A stretch of DNA of 31,061 bases, taken from positions 1 to 31,061 of IMG/VR virus record IMGVR_UViG_3300008216_000049. The stretch is one strand, 5' to 3'. This document shows, one piece after another, positions 3,222 to 27,966 of this stretch. Source of the DNA: a virus. Under the pieces are notes generated by a model, which saw only the letters and a program-made list of their open reading frames with translations, searched no databases and was not told where the DNA came from. Position numbers and translations under genes: made by a program. The first letter of the stretch is position 1, and each line of letters begins with the position of its first letter.

Positions 3222-4018
3222 CAGAGCCCCAGATTGCCCGTCAGCTCGTCCTCATCAATCGAGAGGGATCGGAGTTGCATCTGTGCCACCGGACGAGCCC
3301 GCCACACGGTCGCGGCAGATCCGACCTCCTCCAACCCCTGATCGTGCTCACCGAAGGCGGGATAGACCGTGCGCTTGTCGTTCGCGTTGACGCGTACGAT
3401 CTGCCGCCAGTCGGTCAGCGGCTCGTTGCTCGCAGGCTCCTCGATCCGCAATGCAAACCCCGTCGTGACACCAGCAAAGCCGCCCGCGTCCACAACGATC
3501 GCGTTGTTCTCTATCGTCTCCACCGTGCCCGTCACGTCGGCGCTCACGCTGCCCTGGAGTCCGCTAGCCGTGAGCACCTCGATCGTCTCCCATGTGCCAG
3601 GGAGCACCTCGATGCCCGCGAACTCGACGTTCTGGACGGCGCCATTGCCCACCCAAACGCCCCAGTTGGCGAGGTTCTCGTGCTGCTCCTGCCGACGCCT
3701 TGCACGAGTGTTGATCGCAACCGCCATGATTCGGCCATTCGTCACGATGCCTCGCATGCTGACCGTCACCGTGTCCTGGTCTGGACTCGTGCGACCCTCC
3801 CAATACGCAACCCGCACCCAGTAGAGAGCGGTCTGGGTGAATGGGCTTGTCAGATCCCACGCGTGCGCCGTCAAGCACCTCCGATGGTACGCATGGATCG
3901 CCCTGTCGTTGTGGACGACCTCCCGCAATGCCCACGACGAGACAGGATGCCCGTCGTCGAACGGCAGATCGTCCAAGGTGTTGACCGCTGCCGGGATCGG
4001 ATAACTGAATACAGGCAC
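3221..4018 (-). CDS. Putative tail-tip associated protein
   Basis: A 265-aa protein with a GTG start at 4018, GGGGAG about 11 bases upstream, and 6 bases after the stop of the 799-aa gene. The sequence alternates hydrophobic and polar residues (YWVRVAYWEG, DTVTVSMRGIV, WETIEVLTASG) and has a conserved-looking VWVGNGAVQNVEFAGIEV stretch, typical of beta-sandwich domains in distal tail proteins. It contains no signal peptide. Role is inferred from gene order only: it follows the large tail protein and precedes two proteins of similar build. Confidence 0.6.
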   Translation of the reverse strand: MPVFSYPIPAAVNTLDDLPFDDGHPVSSWALREVVHNDRAIHAYHRRCLTAHAWDLTSPFTQTALYWVRVAYWEGRTSPDQDTVTVSMRGIVTNGRIMAVAINTRARRRQEQHENLANWGVWVGNGAVQNVEFAGIEVLPGTWETIEVLTASGLQGSVSADVTGTVETIENNAIVVDAGGFAGVTTGFALRIEEPASNEPLTDWRQIVRVNANDKRTVYPAFGEHDQGLEEVGSAATVWRARPVAQMQLRSLSIDEDELTGNLGL

Positions 4019-11421: not shown

Positions 11422-11616
11422 CTAACCCTCCGACGGCTTTGCAGGTGTTGGCTCGAAGTCCGCAGGCCGAGCCTTGACGGCGTCCGCTTGCGGACTATCA
11501 GGATCGATCTCTCGGACTTCATACTCCGCCGATCCATACCGGGCCGGATGCGTCTCCCAGGGGAAGACCCACACCACGGAGCGTTTGCTCTTGCTCTTGC
11601 TCTTGCTCTTGCTCAT
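11422..11616 (-). CDS. Small protein with an N-terminal Ser-Lys repeat
   Basis: A 64-aa protein whose ATG overlaps the stop of the upstream gene (ATGA), with GAGG just before. The sequence begins M-(SK)5-R, encoded by four AGCAAG hexamers and one AGCAAA, then continues VVWVFPWETHPARYG and ends in a Pro/Ala-rich tail. The basic start could bind nucleic acid or an acidic partner. Small genes at this place are common in siphoviruses but vary; function is unknown. The hexamer repeat could expand or contract without breaking the frame. Confidence 0.65.
   Translation of the reverse strand: MSKSKSKSKSKRSVVWVFPWETHPARYGSAEYEVREIDPDSPQADAVKARPADFEPTPAKPSEG
11581..11616 (-). repeat. Hexanucleotide tandem repeat (AGCAAG)n at a gene start
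   Basis: Five consecutive hexamers, four AGCAAG and one AGCAAA, follow the ATG and encode Ser-Lys five times. Copy-number slippage would change the protein by two residues per unit. Confidence 0.8.
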
Positions 11617-12119
11617 GGCCTCGCCTCGATCTCCATGAACCGCGCCTCAAGAACTGCGCTCTTCACGAGCCCGCCGCCCTCTAGCTCAAACGTCGGACTG
11701 TAGTCTGATCGGGCGATATCCACCTGGAACACCGGATCCTCCGCCACGCCCGTCTCCTCGACCCGCTCCGTGAGCACCCGCCGCAGAGCCTCGACCGTGC
11801 GAAAGAGGCGACGAGTCAACTCAACCGGGTCGGTGTCCTTGATCACGACGACGCAATCCACCTGATGAGAGATGAACTCGTTGATCGTAAAGATCGGATC
11901 GTGGTCGTCCGCTCTCGGGAGCAAGAACAGCGCCGGGTAATTCTGGATCTCAAGCTCGCCCGCCTCTTCAAAGCGCACCGTGACGATGTCGTCAAGCACG
12001 AGCGCATGACCGAACTCCGCGGCATCGGCCACGGCATACTCGGCATCTTCGACGTTCAACGCCGCAGGTAGAAACGTATTCACCGCCGTGCGGATCTCAA
12101 CCAGGACGTCCTCGATCAT
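11613..12119 (-). CDS. Putative tail terminator / neck protein
   Basis: A 168-aa protein, ATG start with GGGAG about 8 bases upstream. The start (MIEDVLVEIRTAVNTFLPAAL), a central strand region (YPALFLLPRADDHD, VDCVVVIKDTD) and a helix (LTRRLFRTVEALRRVL) fit the alpha/beta fold of tail terminator proteins that cap the tube and join it to the head. It sits between the Mu gpG-like gene and the tail tube gene, the expected place. The family assignment is by pattern and position, without a diagnostic motif. Confidence 0.7.
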   Translation of the reverse strand: MIEDVLVEIRTAVNTFLPAALNVEDAEYAVADAAEFGHALVLDDIVTVRFEEAGELEIQNYPALFLLPRADDHDPIFTINEFISHQVDCVVVIKDTDPVELTRRLFRTVEALRRVLTERVEETGVAEDPVFQVDIARSDYSPTFELEGGGLVKSAVLEARFMEIEARP

Positions 12120-22345: not shown

Positions 22346-24118
22346 TCAAAACAAGTCATCAAACCGGGCGGAGCCATTGCGGTGACCGTTGCGACGACGC
22401 CTCGGCGGGTCACCATCGCCCTCCCATCCTCCGTCACCATTCCAGTCAGCGACACGGAGCCGATCCCGGTTCCCGTTGCGGTTGCCGTTCCCGTTGCGGT
22501 GCTTGTCCGGCATGCGGCCCGACCCGTGAGAGAGAGCGTCTTTTAGCATGTGCAGCGCGTCCGGGAAGTCGTCATGGTCGACGGTCGAGCCATCCTCTCG
22601 CAGCGCCAAGAGTTGATCAAGAGCGGATCCCGCCATGCAGCGATGCAACACGATCCGCCCCGATCGGAGGAGAGGTTGCAACGACTGGAGACGGGCATGC
22701 TTGTCCGTGCTCGGCTTGAAGTCCTCAACGGCCATCGGGAGGCCGCGCCGCTGCACCTCGGCCAACAAAGGCGCCGCAAGCAACTCAAAGCCACCGACAG
22801 CCTCCACCCGCAGCATCTCGGCGCCGATGGCCTCGGCCATGTCCACCGCACGCGGAACGATCTGATCCGGCTTCATCCGGGCCACGTCCACGCCTAGCCC
22901 GTAGATCGTGCCGTCCTCCGCAAGCCCTCCGCCTACAATCGCCGTGAAATCTCCACCCTGCTTTCCCATGGAGGGATCCACGACCACAGCCCGAAACCCA
23001 AGACTCCCCGCCTCGCTGCCGTGCCAAGAGCCCTCACGTGGCCGCCAGTCGTCCGTCTCGTCGTCGTTCCACCATGAAAGCTCATCGGCGTACACTAAAG
23101 CATCCTCGCCCGACCGCGGATCGTTCTGCTTCTCCGAGCCGTGAGCACCTGGCCCGTTGACGACGAGAAACTCCATGTTCGAGTACAAGTCATCGCCAGC
23201 CCAGAGCACCTCTGCGCCCTTGTCCATGGCCGCACGGTGGCCCTCGTAGAACGCCCGAGCCTCGGCATGGCCCGGCGTATCGTCTGCCGAGTAGATGTCC
23301 TCCCAATGCCTCCAGAGGCCGTCGCGCTCGTCCGGCCACCGCTCGACCGCTCGGTAGGTGTGCCCGTTCCAGCCGACGGCGTCCTGGGCGAGCCACGCGA
23401 TCACGGCGTCGGTGTCAACCCTCGTTCCGAAGGCGAGGACGTGCATGGGACGGGCGGTGTCGGACAAACCCATCAGGGCTCGCTCCAACCATCGGCGCAG
23501 CTTGACACGGGCCTGCCGGGAGACGGCGTCCTTGTCGAGGTCGTCCACGATGGCGAGCTGCGGCCGGTACGGTCCCCAACGGAGACCACGCATAGCCGTA
23601 TCGGCGCCGATGGCCTGGACCCTGACGCCTGTCGTTGTAATGAAGTCGCCCCGGTTCCAGTCGGACGTACGAAGATCGCCGTAGACGCCACGGATCTGCC
23701 GGTTCGTGGCGAGCACGTCTCGGATCTCCGCTACCTGCTCCTCCGCTAGCCGGTACTTGACCCGCACGACGAGGATGTATCGGATGCCGTACAGGTCGGG
23801 CTCCAGGCAGCAAGCAAGTGGCAGGAGGAGGCCTCCGATCACCGACTTGGCATGCCCTCTGGGTGCCTCCCATGCCGTGCGGACTGCACCCGCGGCGCCG
23901 GGCAGGGATCGGAGCGTGGCGAAGATGGCCTCATGGAACGCCGAGGAGCCTCGTGCCTGGTCGAAGTAGTCGGGGAGCGCCTCGTAGGCCAGCGTCTTGA
24001 TGTCCTTCCACCGAGCCCGACGGACACGACGGAGGAGGGACTCCCTCGCCTGCGGCGGCAGTTCTGCGATCTGGTCGGTGAGTTCTCCGAGGGACGGGGC
24101 GGTGCGTTCAGTCTCCAA
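22346..24118 (-). CDS. Terminase large subunit
   Basis: A 590-aa protein from a TTG start that overlaps the methyltransferase gene by 11 bases. ATPase: Walker A-like APRGHAKS at residues 85-92, Walker B LAIVDDLD at 188-195 and a coupling motif LAFGTRVDTDAV near 245. Nuclease: first acidic site VVVDPSMGKQGGDFTAIV near residue 390 and a late acidic site DHDDFPDALHML near 530. It drives DNA into the prohead and cuts the concatemer, with the small subunit encoded upstream. The last 50 residues are a low-complexity Asn/Gly/Arg tail (NGNGNRNGNRDR), unusual for the family and perhaps a flexible DNA- or portal-binding extension. Confidence 0.93.
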   Translation of the reverse strand: METERTAPSLGELTDQIAELPPQARESLLRRVRRARWKDIKTLAYEALPDYFDQARGSSAFHEAIFATLRSLPGAAGAVRTAWEAPRGHAKSVIGGLLLPLACCLEPDLYGIRYILVVRVKYRLAEEQVAEIRDVLATNRQIRGVYGDLRTSDWNRGDFITTTGVRVQAIGADTAMRGLRWGPYRPQLAIVDDLDKDAVSRQARVKLRRWLERALMGLSDTARPMHVLAFGTRVDTDAVIAWLAQDAVGWNGHTYRAVERWPDERDGLWRHWEDIYSADDTPGHAEARAFYEGHRAAMDKGAEVLWAGDDLYSNMEFLVVNGPGAHGSEKQNDPRSGEDALVYADELSWWNDDETDDWRPREGSWHGSEAGSLGFRAVVVDPSMGKQGGDFTAIVGGGLAEDGTIYGLGVDVARMKPDQIVPRAVDMAEAIGAEMLRVEAVGGFELLAAPLLAEVQRRGLPMAVEDFKPSTDKHARLQSLQPLLRSGRIVLHRCMAGSALDQLLALREDGSTVDHDDFPDALHMLKDALSHGSGRMPDKHRNGNGNRNGNRDRLRVADWNGDGGWEGDGDPPRRRRNGHRNGSARFDDLF

Positions 24119-25490
24119 GGGCGCCCGATCCTGGGTCCACGCCGTGAGCCTCGGCGTACCGTGTCCACCGACGGCGTATCACGTCCACGTAGCGGGGACT
24201 GATGTCCATACCCACGCATACGCGGCCGGTCTGGGCGGCTGCGATCAGGGTGGTGCCGGAGCCCAGGAAGGGGTCAAGGATAACATCGCCCTCGTCACTG
24301 TACGCCTTGACAAAGAACTCGGGTAGGGCGACGGGGAAGGCCGCTTCATGCTGCTCTCCGTGGTTGGCAGGGTTGTTTGGGATGTCCAGATGGTTGCCGG
24401 GGCGCGCCGTCCCGTCCGTGCGTTGCACGTCGCCGCCGTGCCAACCCTGGTTGCCCGTGCGATTCGTCCCGCTAACCCTGCCGCCTTCGTGGAACATCGA
24501 CGCGCTCTCATGCCCCACCGCCAGCGGATGGAACTTCGGCGCACCTACAGTGAAGTGGTAGACCGGCTCCCACGCGTTCTTGAAGCGGTTGGGCCATGTC
24601 CCTGGCAGACCGCGATGCGTCCAGCACAGCTCGTCCACGAACCGCCACCCCCACCGGCGGACGTGGGAGAGCACGAGGTCCATCACGTAGAGCACCCGCT
24701 GCCCGTCCTCGCAATGCGCCTTGATGTTGACGAACCAGGAGCCGTCGTCGGCGAGCACGGCCCGTACGTTCGCCTGGACGTCCTCGAACCAGTCGACGTA
24801 TTGCTCCGCAGGGATCGGCTTGAATCCACTTGACTCGTCGTACTTCCGCTGTGAGGCGTATGGAGGCGAGGTAAACGCCACGTTGACTCGCTCGCCCTGG
24901 AGCAGGGAAGCAACCGCTGACCCGGCCCGACAGTCGCCCACCATCACCCGGTGCGGACCCAGCTCGTAGATCTCGCCGAGCTTGCTGTCGGGCTCGCCCT
25001 CTTCGTCTAGGGCCGGCACGTCATCCTCATCCACGTCAACCGGCAGACGAGGCAGCGAGTCCTCCAACTCGTCCAGCCGTAGCGACTCGAACAGGACGGC
25101 GTCGGCCTCCCGAATGCGCTCCAGGATCGGGCCTACGTCGTCGGTGAACGCCCCGGCGATCTGCGGGTTGTTCGCTGCGACGTTGGCAGCCCGCTCTCTG
25201 TCCTCGTCCCAATCGACGATCCGAACGGGGAAGCGCGCACCGTCCGGCGTGACGATGGCGCCGTCTTCGAGCTTCAGCCCGCCGTCGTGATTCTTCTTGA
25301 GTCCGGCGACTCGCTGGTGACCTGCAACGAGATGGCCGGTGCGCTCATTCCAGACGATGCCAGCGATGTCTCCGAACTCCGACATGGACACCCGAAGACC
25401 GGCGTGAGCAGCGTCAGAGATCGCCCGAGGATTCCACGGGGCGCCCTTCAGATCCTCGACGGTTCGGGGAAAAGCGGCTGGTGTGTCCAT
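24108..25490 (-). CDS. ParB-like nuclease domain fused to DNA methyltransferase
   Basis: A 460-aa protein. ATG 25490 is preceded by AGGAGGT with an 8-base spacer, which decides the start. Residues 10-110 are a ParB/sulfiredoxin-like domain with WNPRAIS and GHLVAGHQRVAGL. The C-terminal 270 residues are a beta-class adenine-N6 or cytosine-N4 methyltransferase: motif IV AFTSPPY near residue 205, then motif I DPFLGSGTTLIAA near 415. TSPPY is common in N4-cytosine enzymes, but substrate is not fixed by it. The gene separates the two terminase subunits, as in many phages, and may protect phage DNA or mark it for packaging. Confidence 0.9.
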   Translation of the reverse strand: MDTPAAFPRTVEDLKGAPWNPRAISDAAHAGLRVSMSEFGDIAGIVWNERTGHLVAGHQRVAGLKKNHDGGLKLEDGAIVTPDGARFPVRIVDWDEDRERAANVAANNPQIAGAFTDDVGPILERIREADAVLFESLRLDELEDSLPRLPVDVDEDDVPALDEEGEPDSKLGEIYELGPHRVMVGDCRAGSAVASLLQGERVNVAFTSPPYASQRKYDESSGFKPIPAEQYVDWFEDVQANVRAVLADDGSWFVNIKAHCEDGQRVLYVMDLVLSHVRRWGWRFVDELCWTHRGLPGTWPNRFKNAWEPVYHFTVGAPKFHPLAVGHESASMFHEGGRVSGTNRTGNQGWHGGDVQRTDGTARPGNHLDIPNNPANHGEQHEAAFPVALPEFFVKAYSDEGDVILDPFLGSGTTLIAAAQTGRVCVGMDISPRYVDVIRRRWTRYAEAHGVDPGSGALGD

Positions 25491-25494
25491 TGGT

Positions 25495-25575
25495 TCACAC
25501 CTCCTCGACGGCCAGCAAACAACGGCCAGCCGCATCGCCTACACCGGACCTTGACAACCACACTCTCTTACCCAT
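25495..25575 (-). CDS. Possible 26-aa microprotein or leader ORF upstream of the methyltransferase
   Basis: ATG at 25575 has GGGAG 5 bases upstream. The frame encodes 26 residues (MGKRVWLSRSGVGDAAGRCL...) and stops 4 bases before the methyltransferase ATG, so the downstream SD is embedded in its last codons. This arrangement suggests translational coupling. The peptide may matter only as a leader. Otherwise the 119-base gap between the small terminase and methyltransferase genes has nothing. Confidence 0.4.
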   Translation of the reverse strand: MGKRVWLSRSGVGDAAGRCLLAVEEV

Positions 25576-26107: not shown

Positions 26108-26340
26108 GTCGCAGCCTTATAGCGTCACGTTGACGATAGGGGCGGAGCGGCGTCGTGTCTAGGGTCAGGCTCGAATCGTTGTCAGGATAGGGCCTCGGGG
26201 CGAGGTGCTAATTATTTGAAACAAATTCGCCGCGTGGTTTTGCCCGTCTCTGGTCGGGGGGCTAAACTCCGTCGAGTTTTGCCCGACCGTGCCAACTCGT
26301 TACAGCACGCGGCTTTGCAACGCGTCGGCCCAGTTTGACG
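26108..26340. other. 233-base non-coding region next to the terminase gene
   Basis: No convincing reading frame. It contains an AT-rich patch (26210-26228) in GC-rich surroundings, two 10-bp direct repeats GTTTTGCCCG (26237-26246, 26276-26285), two copies of GTCAGGCTCG (26164-26173, 26340-26349) and a strong hairpin at 26252-26288. It is expected to hold the late-operon promoter, though no clear -35/-10 pair was found, and it could include a packaging site. Confidence 0.5.
26252..26288. promoter_or_regulatory. Stem-loop between small gene and terminase operon
   Basis: A 14-bp stem with a CGTC tetraloop (26270-26273): AAACTC/GAGTTT, one T-T mismatch, GGGC/GCCC, a 3-G bulge, then GGTC/GACC. 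Neither side is followed by a T-run, so it is not a standard intrinsic terminator. It could be a U-less terminator for transcripts from the 68-aa gene or a protein-binding site. Confidence 0.5.
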
Positions 26341-26547
26341 TCAGGCTCGCCTTTCGAGAGTCTTTGCTCTCTGATCCCGTCGCCTGGATTCGTCTTGGTG
26401 CCATGCTGCGCCCTCGTCGTCATCGAGTCGTTCGAGCATGACGGCGAGTCCGTGGTATCGGTCTGCCTCTCGGCTGCATGCGTCTGGGCCGAGGCCGTCG
26501 TAGTAGTTGTGACTCCTTGGGAATCGGTCGTCCTTGGTGCGCGGCAT
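26341..26547 (-). CDS. Small charged protein next to the control region
   Basis: A 68-aa protein. The start is decided by AGGAGGT with a 5-base spacer, one of the best ribosome sites in the window; a longer 115-codon frame over the same bases reads as noise. The protein is hydrophilic and probably helical (READRYHGLAVMLERLDDDEG), with a basic C-terminus (RRRDQRAKTLERRA). It is transcribed away from the 82-aa gene on plus, and an 11-bp palindrome lies 20 bases before its start. It may be a small regulator, but no fold is recognised. Confidence 0.65.
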   Translation of the reverse strand: MPRTKDDRFPRSHNYYDGLGPDACSREADRYHGLAVMLERLDDDEGAAWHQDESRRRDQRAKTLERRA

Positions 26548-26567
26548 GTCCCACCTCCTACATGGTA

Positions 26568-26578
26568 GACGTGGCGTC
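26568..26578. promoter_or_regulatory. Candidate operator, palindrome GACGTGGCGTC (copy 1)
   Basis: GACG-TGG-CGTC is an inverted repeat with 4-bp arms. This copy lies 20 bases before the start of the 68-aa gene, where a repressor would block it. An identical copy sits at 26669-26679. Confidence 0.55.
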
Positions 26579-26657
26579 TGGGCATCGTCTGACAGCCAGC
26601 GCAGGACATGGGGGAAGAGGAAAAGCGACGCCGGGCGTGTTCCGTTGAAATAAACCC

Positions 26658-26686
26658 TTGACTCGTCGGACGTGGCGTCCTATTCT
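26658..26686 (+). promoter_or_regulatory. Sigma-70-type promoter for the 82-aa gene
   Basis: -35 TTGACT (26658-26663, 5 of 6 consensus bases), 17-base spacer, -10 TATTCT (26681-26686, 4 of 6, fits TANNNT). The predicted transcription start falls about 26693. The spacer holds the second palindromic operator. Confidence 0.65.
26669..26679. promoter_or_regulatory. Candidate operator, palindrome GACGTGGCGTC (copy 2)
   Basis: Identical 11-mer to 26568-26578, placed inside the -35/-10 spacer of the plus-strand promoter, so a bound protein would exclude RNA polymerase. Two copies 101 bases apart between divergent genes suggest one regulator controls both. Confidence 0.6.
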
Positions 26687-26722
26687 TCGTTTATGGCAAG
26701 GAACACCACACTGGAGAACACG

Positions 26723-26987: not shown

Positions 26988-27037
26988 CTCCCAGAAGGCG
27001 GCGCCCAGCTCATCGAGCCCCGCCCGCCTTCTGGGAG
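26988..27037. terminator. Hairpin terminator between convergent genes
   Basis: A perfect 14-bp stem (26988-27001 with 27024-27037, CTCCCAGAAGGCGG and its complement) around a 22-base loop. It lies between the plus gene ending at 26971 and the minus gene ending at 27010; the minus gene's last codons form one arm and its stop is in the loop. No T-run follows on either side, so it would act as a U-less bidirectional terminator. Confidence 0.65.
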
Positions 27038-27966
27038 TCCTTGATCCGCTTGTCGTTCTCGCTCTGCCATCTCGCAAGATGCGCCTCGAACTCCTCATCA
27101 GACCATGCCGCGATCCGGTTGCCATTCTTGGCGGCGCGGTAATGCTTCATAGTTGCAGGCTTTGAGACGACGGCGAGGAGATACGGCACCGCCTCGACGG
27201 GATCGCCGTGAAACTTCGCGACGAACCGACCGCCGAGGAGATGCTGGACGGTCCAGGCGACGTATACAGCCGCGTCCTCGATAGTCCGACCCTCCCGCCC
27301 GTGCTTGACGAAAAACCGCTTGAGTTCGCCGGACAATGCGCCGTAAAGGGCCTTGGCCTCCCGTGAGCCGGAGGGAGGCAGAGTGAACCCTGACTCATCG
27401 AGGGCGGCAGCGATGGGTGTGAGCCAGGTCGTCTTGCCGTTGCGCCTCTTGCTGGGTGACGCGGACCGACTCCGCGGAGAGGGCTTGTCCCTCGGAGCGG
27501 AGTCGTACTCCTCTCCGTCTGTCTGTGGGTCGGTCTGTCGGTCTGTCGGTCCATCCACGCGTGACCCATTATCTCCCACGCGTGCCCCCGGCGTGCCCTC
27601 TTCGTGGTGCACGCGTGACCCACGTTTGCTTGATCTCCTGCGCGCCTTTTCCGCCTGCGCTCTGCGGTAGGATTCTGCCCGTTCCAGCCAACCGTGGACG
27701 ATCCAGCGTCCCTCCTCAACGTCAAGGAGCCCTGTTTGCAGAAGGGCGCCCACAAGATCGCCCGCGCTGCCATCCCAGCCGCATGCGAGCGCTACATCAT
27801 CCGAATCCCACCCATCGAGGTCGCCGTCTGGAGCATCGGCCACGACGGTGCACCAGAGCCCCATGACGAGGCCGCGAGCTTCGAGCAGGTTGACTCCGAG
27901 TTTCCTCGTGAGCTTTCGGATTTTCCGATGGTTTGCTGCGGACTCTTCCAATCTGAACCAGGCCAT
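27010..27966 (-). CDS. Replication initiator/organiser-like protein with winged-helix N-terminus
   Basis: A 318-aa protein, ATG start with GGAG 6 bases upstream inside a small hairpin. Residues 1-100 resemble the N-terminal winged-helix domain of phage replisome organisers or DnaD-like proteins: WFRLEESAANHRKIRKLTRKLG, then ALLQTGLLDVEEGRWIVHGW. Residues 105-165 are a basic and low-complexity linker with repeated GSRV and TDRQTDPQTD. The C-terminal part (residues 175-318) is helical (AKALYGALSGELKRFFVKHG). Such proteins bind origin repeats and load helicase. The linker-encoding DNA contains iteron-like repeats, as in lambda O. It is monocistronic and ends at a convergent hairpin. Confidence 0.65.
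   Translation of the reverse strand: MAWFRLEESAANHRKIRKLTRKLGVNLLEARGLVMGLWCTVVADAPDGDLDGWDSDDVALACGWDGSAGDLVGALLQTGLLDVEEGRWIVHGWLERAESYRRAQAEKARRRSSKRGSRVHHEEGTPGARVGDNGSRVDGPTDRQTDPQTDGEEYDSAPRDKPSPRSRSASPSKRRNGKTTWLTPIAAALDESGFTLPPSGSREAKALYGALSGELKRFFVKHGREGRTIEDAAVYVAWTVQHLLGGRFVAKFHGDPVEAVPYLLAVVSKPATMKHYRAAKNGNRIAAWSDEEFEAHLARWQSENDKRIKDSQKAGGAR
27529..27552. repeat. Three tandem 8-bp repeats GTCGGTCT
   Basis: Two exact copies and one with a final C occur head to tail, inside the initiator-like gene. They encode part of the TDRQTDPQTD segment and lie 3 bases from the CACGCGTG repeats. Confidence 0.75.
27556..27622. repeat. Iteron-like repeats CACGCGTG(A)CCC, candidate replication origin
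   Basis: CACGCGTGACCCA occurs at 27556-27568 and 27610-27622, and CACGCGTGCCC at 27577-27587. The 8-bp core CACGCGTG is a palindrome. Start-to-start spacings are 21 and 33 bases, near whole helical turns. The repeats lie inside an initiator-like gene, the arrangement of the lambda O origin. Confidence 0.5.

Follow-up and report, generated by a model that had tools for sequence, protein, structure and literature searches.

Repeats in the linker-coding part of a phage initiator gene have the architecture of an intragenic iteron origin

Introduction

Can the gene for a phage initiator carry, within its own coding sequence, the DNA on which its product acts? The question was raised by a minus-strand gene in IMG/VR record IMGVR_UViG_3300008216_000049, all 31,061 nt of which were analysed and are called the window here. 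An initial annotation of this DNA had proposed that repeats clustered in the gene form a replication origin in the manner of lambda gene O. We examined the protein, the repeats and the corresponding genes of related phages.

The gene encodes a phage initiator

The gene and the predicted layout of its product are as follows.

27010-27966, minus strand: initiator gene, 318 aa (PHROG profile matches, AlphaFold2 layout)
Residues about 1-120 of the initiator: N-terminal helical/winged-helix-like domain (AlphaFold2)
Residues about 123-186: disordered linker (AlphaFold2)
Residues about 187-318: C-terminal part, poorly modelled (AlphaFold2)

The gene had been called initiator-like from its letters, and profile matches over the N-domain bore this out: the protein matched phrog_9474 (E 2.9e-22) and phrog_2447 (E 1.4e-12), both annotated 'replication initiation protein', and this sequence evidence places it in the phage initiator family phrog_9474. 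Using tblastn, we found N-domain relatives in Paenibacillus phage Harrison ('primosome'), FP_Lagaffe, Shimadzu, nd4 and Microcystis/Synechococcus phages. The Harrison, Lagaffe and Shimadzu matches are annotated primosome/replication initiation, and SSB, ERF or DnaC-like genes lie near most of these relatives' initiator genes. In the AlphaFold2 model, pLDDT was 94-98 for residues 11-90, 86-91 for residues 91-120 and below 50 for most of 131-186. The top structural matches of the predicted N-domain were, weakly, initiator N-terminal domains (4pql/4pt7/5kbj, Z 5.3-5.5); the RepA domain, among the top rows and below Z 8, gave Z 5.5 with 3.1 Å over 83 residues, and the DnaD N-terminal domain 2vn2 gave Z 4.9. 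The family profile matched the DnaD domain 2i5u weakly (E 0.6). Foldseek of the structure against the PDB returned no match with E below 0.3, and no Pfam family, RepA_N (pfam06970) and DnaD included, matched the protein at E up to 1.

PHROG recognised no helicase loader downstream in the window, where the next minus-strand ORF (26262-26609) had no PHROG match. Among relatives, one contig alone is close (L005/G001); it shares 99.9% identity with the window and brings no independent evidence; by eye, its 1.4 kb past the window end held no obvious helicase or loader. It has 6 bp in place of the 198 bp at 26523-26720, which points to recent gain or loss of this stretch, located upstream of two small ORFs. 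Elsewhere in the window, 24108-25535 encodes a protein whose N-terminal part resembles ParB (phrog_620) and is joined to an N6/N4 DNA methyltransferase (PF01555). A perfect 14-bp inverted repeat, CTCCCAGAAGGCGG / CCGCCTTCTGGGAG, with arms 22 nt apart, lies at 26988-27037 between convergent genes at the 3' end of the initiator gene and is possibly a bidirectional terminator lacking a T run. Five perfect TTGCTC hexamers (11585-11614) stand just beyond the 3' end of the minus-strand gene 11613-12119. Searches of the whole window for tRNAs and Rfam RNAs found none. The GC skew changes sign near 26-30 kb; it cannot place the origin, since transcription switches strand at the same place.

Phased iterons adjoin a short-unit tandem array

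The repeats had been placed in the linker-coding part of the gene, and most of the repeat region indeed falls within the predicted disordered linker; residues 116 to about 152, comprising the end of the N-domain helix and linker sequence, are encoded by repeats. The elements are listed in the coding direction.

27603-27624, unstranded: imperfect palindrome around iteron 1, CGTGGTGCACGCGTGACCCACG, arms 86% complementary (repeat search)
27610-27621, minus strand: iteron 1, first in the coding direction, GGGTCACGCGTG, encoding GSRV, residues 116-119 (exact copy)
27588-27599, minus strand: degenerate iteron, 9/12, in 11-bp register with 27577 and 27610 (score scan)
27577-27588, minus strand: iteron 2, GGGGCACGCGTG, encoding GARV
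27556-27567, minus strand: iteron 3, GGGTCACGCGTG, encoding GSRV
27513-27552, minus strand: module 2, (GACC/GACA)n tandem array, period 4/8, strand-asymmetric (tandem score, TRF)

The three CACGCGTG repeats reported earlier are exact copies at 27556, 27577 and 27610, with the 12-mer forms CACGCGTGACCC, CACGCGTGCCCC and CACGCGTGACCC, so that the linker-coding part of the gene contains at least three iterons. CACGCGTG is the only non-low-complexity 8-mer with three copies inside 80 bp in the whole 31 kb. Random scatter of this 8-mer, which had been named as evidence against an origin, was not seen: it has one further copy in the window, at 3858. The degenerate iteron (scores of 9/12 or better occur at 0.14% of positions) has its start exactly 11 bp away from that of iteron 2 and 22 bp away from that of iteron 1; the starts 27556, 27577, 27588 and 27610 are thus spaced by 21, 11 and 22 bp, or 2, 1 and 2 helical turns. 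The earlier reading of GSRV twice and of TDRQTDPQTD in the translation was right, with GARV once besides, and the three full iterons are all in one reading frame. Exact searching of viral contigs for GGGTCACGCGTG twice within 3-32 bases found none, which is weak evidence because records of this phage itself were possibly excluded and the outer pair in the window is 42 bases apart.

The tandem array had been described as three GTCGGTCT units. Those at 27529 and 27537 are exact, and the third, at 27545, reads GTCGGTCC with one mismatch; a (GACN)n repeat read on the coding strand fits the array better and covers about 27513-27552 (TRF call, 27517-27551). Five successive GACN units have 0 expected chance occurrences, and the off-frame tandem score was 15 vs about 6 in synonymous shuffles. 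The coding strand of the array contains no T, and 27510-27552 has 65% GC. We found no AT-rich tract near the repeats, the lowest 40-mer within 27400-27700 having 57.5% GC. The DnaD single-strand recognition motif, TnnT (PMC10201434), which occurs as pairs on one strand, is absent from the array, and there is no AnnA on its coding strand.

We compared these repeats with 4000 synonymous shuffles, in which the protein sequence was kept fixed. The size of the iteron family was reached in 37-42 shuffles (p about 0.01), the array score in 9-13 (p about 0.002-0.003) and both jointly in 1-5. Furthermore, less used codons of the window, TCA (8%), CGA (15%) and ACA (11%), fall inside the repeats. Because the three full iterons share one frame, the window by itself leaves some doubt whether selection acted on DNA or protein, and its case against a protein-level repeat rests mainly on codon choice and the period-8 array.

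Relatives carry different repeats in the same place

By family alignment, 80 loci were taken from viral contigs, giving 61 non-redundant genes, namely the window and 60 further relatives, six named phages included; these are not phylogenetically independent. The initial annotation had held that absence of the repeats from relatives conserving the gene would speak against an origin. Instead, these relatives carry different repeats in the same place. Most have, at the same linker position, DNA repeats above synonymous-codon expectation, many of them out of frame, and dozens of distant relatives show the same two-part layout in other letters. Across the 61 genes, linker repeat coverage was 40.1 vs 22.2 per 100 bp in synonymous shuffles for all repeats and 20.1 vs 6.6 for out-of-frame 8-mers, whereas N-domain coverage was 3.1 vs 2.9. 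Out-of-frame coverage was significant in 34/61 linkers vs 4/61 N-domains. The best tandem array exceeded the synonymous null in 52/61 genes, with a period that was not a multiple of three in 37 of the 52; periods of 5, 6, 10 and 11 dominated. When the lowest-complexity 115 residues in each of 133 neighbouring genes served as control, significant out-of-frame arrays were found in 46/61 initiator linkers vs 1/133 neighbours.

The nearest N-domain relative (L022; 42% identity, 49% GC) has GTCACGCG, the same core as GGGTCACGCGTG of the window, in 11-bp steps and in three reading frames, giving CHA, VTR and SRG. In Harrison this position is taken by GTCACG repeats together with a CCTAAC array. In 29/32 genes the commonest iteron occurred in at least two frames or orientations. 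Distances between repeated 7-mers outside the array peaked at 11 bp (30 genes; null, 4.4) and 22 bp (24; 3.4), with further peaks at 33 bp (14; 6.9), 43 bp (11; 1.5) and 54 bp (10; 3.9). Such an 11-bp ladder does not arise from codons, and proteins bound on one face of the DNA can yield it. Since the tandem score and the 11-bp spacing statistics had been chosen after the first relatives were seen, we ran them again on 27 held-out genes, which came from other scans and from bacterial genomes: 17/27 had out-of-frame arrays, and the distances recurred at 11 bp (11 vs 1.9), 22 bp (7 vs 0.9) and 43 bp (4 vs 0.4). These data settle, as far as sequence comparison can, the question of DNA versus protein level for the family.

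The second module was equally regular. In 42/49 genes the iterons were followed by a tandem array with units of 4-6 nt or multiples of these, and the array lay a median of 51 codons past the HDW motif (IQR 45-63.5). Units among the relatives include CCAGAG, ACCCA, ACCGT and AGAGT, compared with GACN in the window. The period tracked N-domain type (5/10 vs 6/12; Fisher p 6e-6, uncorrected for phylogeny). The median difference between array GC and gene GC was 0.00, so the array is not just DNA that melts readily. Many arrays are T-free on the coding strand; T-depletion was rejected as a DNA-level signal, being within synonymous expectation and explained by amino acid composition. Iteron type tracked N-domain divergence no more closely than background DNA did, with a Mantel r of 0.146 in the linker and 0.155 in N-domain DNA. 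A search of mostly non-subscription literature returned no description of the two-module pattern in phrog_9474-type initiators.

Tandem CCAGAG hexamers were also seen in 15/88 initiator genes that have diverged widely, the majority being of the VHDWxEH type (for example L017, L066, L092, L124 and L128). Some linkers hold an inserted domain: an HNH endonuclease in L057 and L090 (Pfam), similar sequence in L053 (by eye), and in L060 a MUG113 domain, which we take to be GIY-YIG-like. These four, like some other genes, have few repeats or none where the repeats usually lie, and in L060 an array (GCCTAA) is present after the insert. The inserts are possibly mobile domains that landed in the origin.

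As positive controls, lambda O, with its proven origin, passed the same synonymous-shuffle coverage test, and TP901-1 rep, which contains its origin, was not significant and showed no repeat excess in the test used. The repeat test is thus not universal, and absence of the signal does not exclude an origin.

Alternative explanations and proposed mechanism

Judged from sequence, the window has an intragenic iteron origin architecture of the lambda-O/RepA_N style. The family of the protein, the linker position of the repeats and the multi-frame, helically spaced repeats of relatives support the earlier proposal of an origin inside the initiator gene, and we consider that about 27510-27625, in the linker-coding part, is probably the replication origin or, at the minimum, the cognate site of the initiator (rough probability 0.83).

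The same repeats might exist for the sake of the peptide, with GSRV and TDRQTD selected in the linker and the DNA merely following. That the iterons of the window are all in one frame would fit this, as would the naturally low complexity of hydrophilic linkers, from whose amino acid composition a T-poor coding strand follows. However, repeats exceed those of synonymous shuffles, one core appears in several reading frames, spacings track the DNA helix, periods of 8 here and of 5, 10 and 11 in relatives are not multiples of three, and the window repeats use the less used codons TCA, CGA and ACA. A purely protein-level repeat is therefore rejected for the family on the shuffles, multi-frame cores and helical spacing; for the window it is unlikely, and overall we hold it to be very improbable. 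Replication slippage would leave functionless arrays in disordered linkers that tolerate microsatellites: short tandem units like those of module 2 are its typical product, and period and letters differ between phages, yet it does not make dispersed, helically phased palindromic iterons. Nor would it readily give arrays that are near-absent out of frame from the lowest-complexity parts of 133 neighbouring genes, that occupy so narrow a position in a near-constant order, and whose period follows clade. Neutral slippage accordingly seems to us another very improbable account.

The iterons could instead be operators through which the initiator or another regulator controls transcription, with no origin present. 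Autoregulation is common among initiators, 8-bp palindromes are the kind of site that a dimeric repressor would bind, and a divergent CII-like/HTH regulator lies 0.6 kb away; but the sites are about 350 nt inside the gene, away from its promoter, and the adjoining tandem array and conserved order would be left unexplained. We regard this as the least probable of the three.

For the origin reading, we infer by analogy that initiator binding, opening of the array, helicase loading and the start of replication would take place here. Binding of the N-domain, probably as an oligomer on one DNA face, would be to the helically phased iterons (GGGTCACGCGTG and the degenerate copy); the complex may then strain or open the adjoining (GACN)n array, which lies on the C-terminal side in the coding direction; the initiator or a partner would hold the array DNA as a single strand, and recruitment of the replicative helicase would follow at the opened array. 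The array occupies the position of lambda's AT-rich tract, and we propose that it would be read as a single strand. For the family, we tentatively suggest a two-module origin, possible rather than probable, in which phased iterons are joined to a 4-6 nt array that acts as a sequence-specific single-strand binding/opening element and not as an AT-rich region. The array period (5/10 and 6/12 in two clades, 4/8 in the window) would then be set by the protein that coats it. If this is true, these phages represent a separate solution to origin melting. The origin reading itself suggests an alternative to AT-rich melting that can be tested, and it would account for the odd linkers of low complexity in these proteins (EPEPEP, RVDKSRVDKSR, PNLTVPN) as origin DNA in disguise. 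It would also supply a sequence-only rule for phage origins, namely initiator-linker DNA repeats beyond codon expectation with helical-turn spacing, applicable to a large family of mostly uncultured phages.

Comparison with known systems

Intragenic iteron origins are already known from lambda O (PMC7466680) and pSK41 RepA_N (PMC5703833), so the earlier description of a new origin type was too strong. In lambda O, iterons lie mid-gene, between the DNA-binding N-domain and the C-terminal part (PMC7466680), and in both lambda and the window a second tract comes after the iterons in the coding direction. This tract is AT-rich in lambda, whereas that of the window is a GC-neutral 4/8-nt array; the iteron sequences are unrelated, with no sequence relation demonstrated between window and lambda, and lambda has a P loader gene, whereas no P-like loader gene was recognised adjoining the initiator of the window.

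The layout is nearly identical to that of RepA_N plasmid initiators (pSK41, pTZ2162 RepA). The pSK41 Rep protein has 319 aa, its N-terminal domain (1-120) binds Rep boxes in the rep gene, and its linker (121-199) is ori-encoded and dispensable (PMC5703833). RepA_N repeats converge on a poly-A tract (PMC7145576); the window differs in its GC-rich palindromic iterons, its extra short tandem array and its phage gene, with no Pfam match and a weak Z. Given no Pfam match, Z of 5.5 and 4.9 to the RepA and DnaD N-terminal domains and no AT-rich tract, we liken the 318-aa protein to RepA_N and lambda O by architecture and assign it to neither. The predicted N-domain also weakly resembles the DnaD N-terminal domain (2vn2) and recalls DnaD-like organisers (TP901-1 Rep, the Harrison 'primosome'), whereas the array lacks the TnnT motif of DnaD. 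Finally, bacterial oriC, with DnaA boxes and DnaA-trios, likewise sets double-strand sites beside a short tandem element; initiator and sequences are different and the arrays here have units of 4-6 nt rather than 3, making the likeness one of analogy only.
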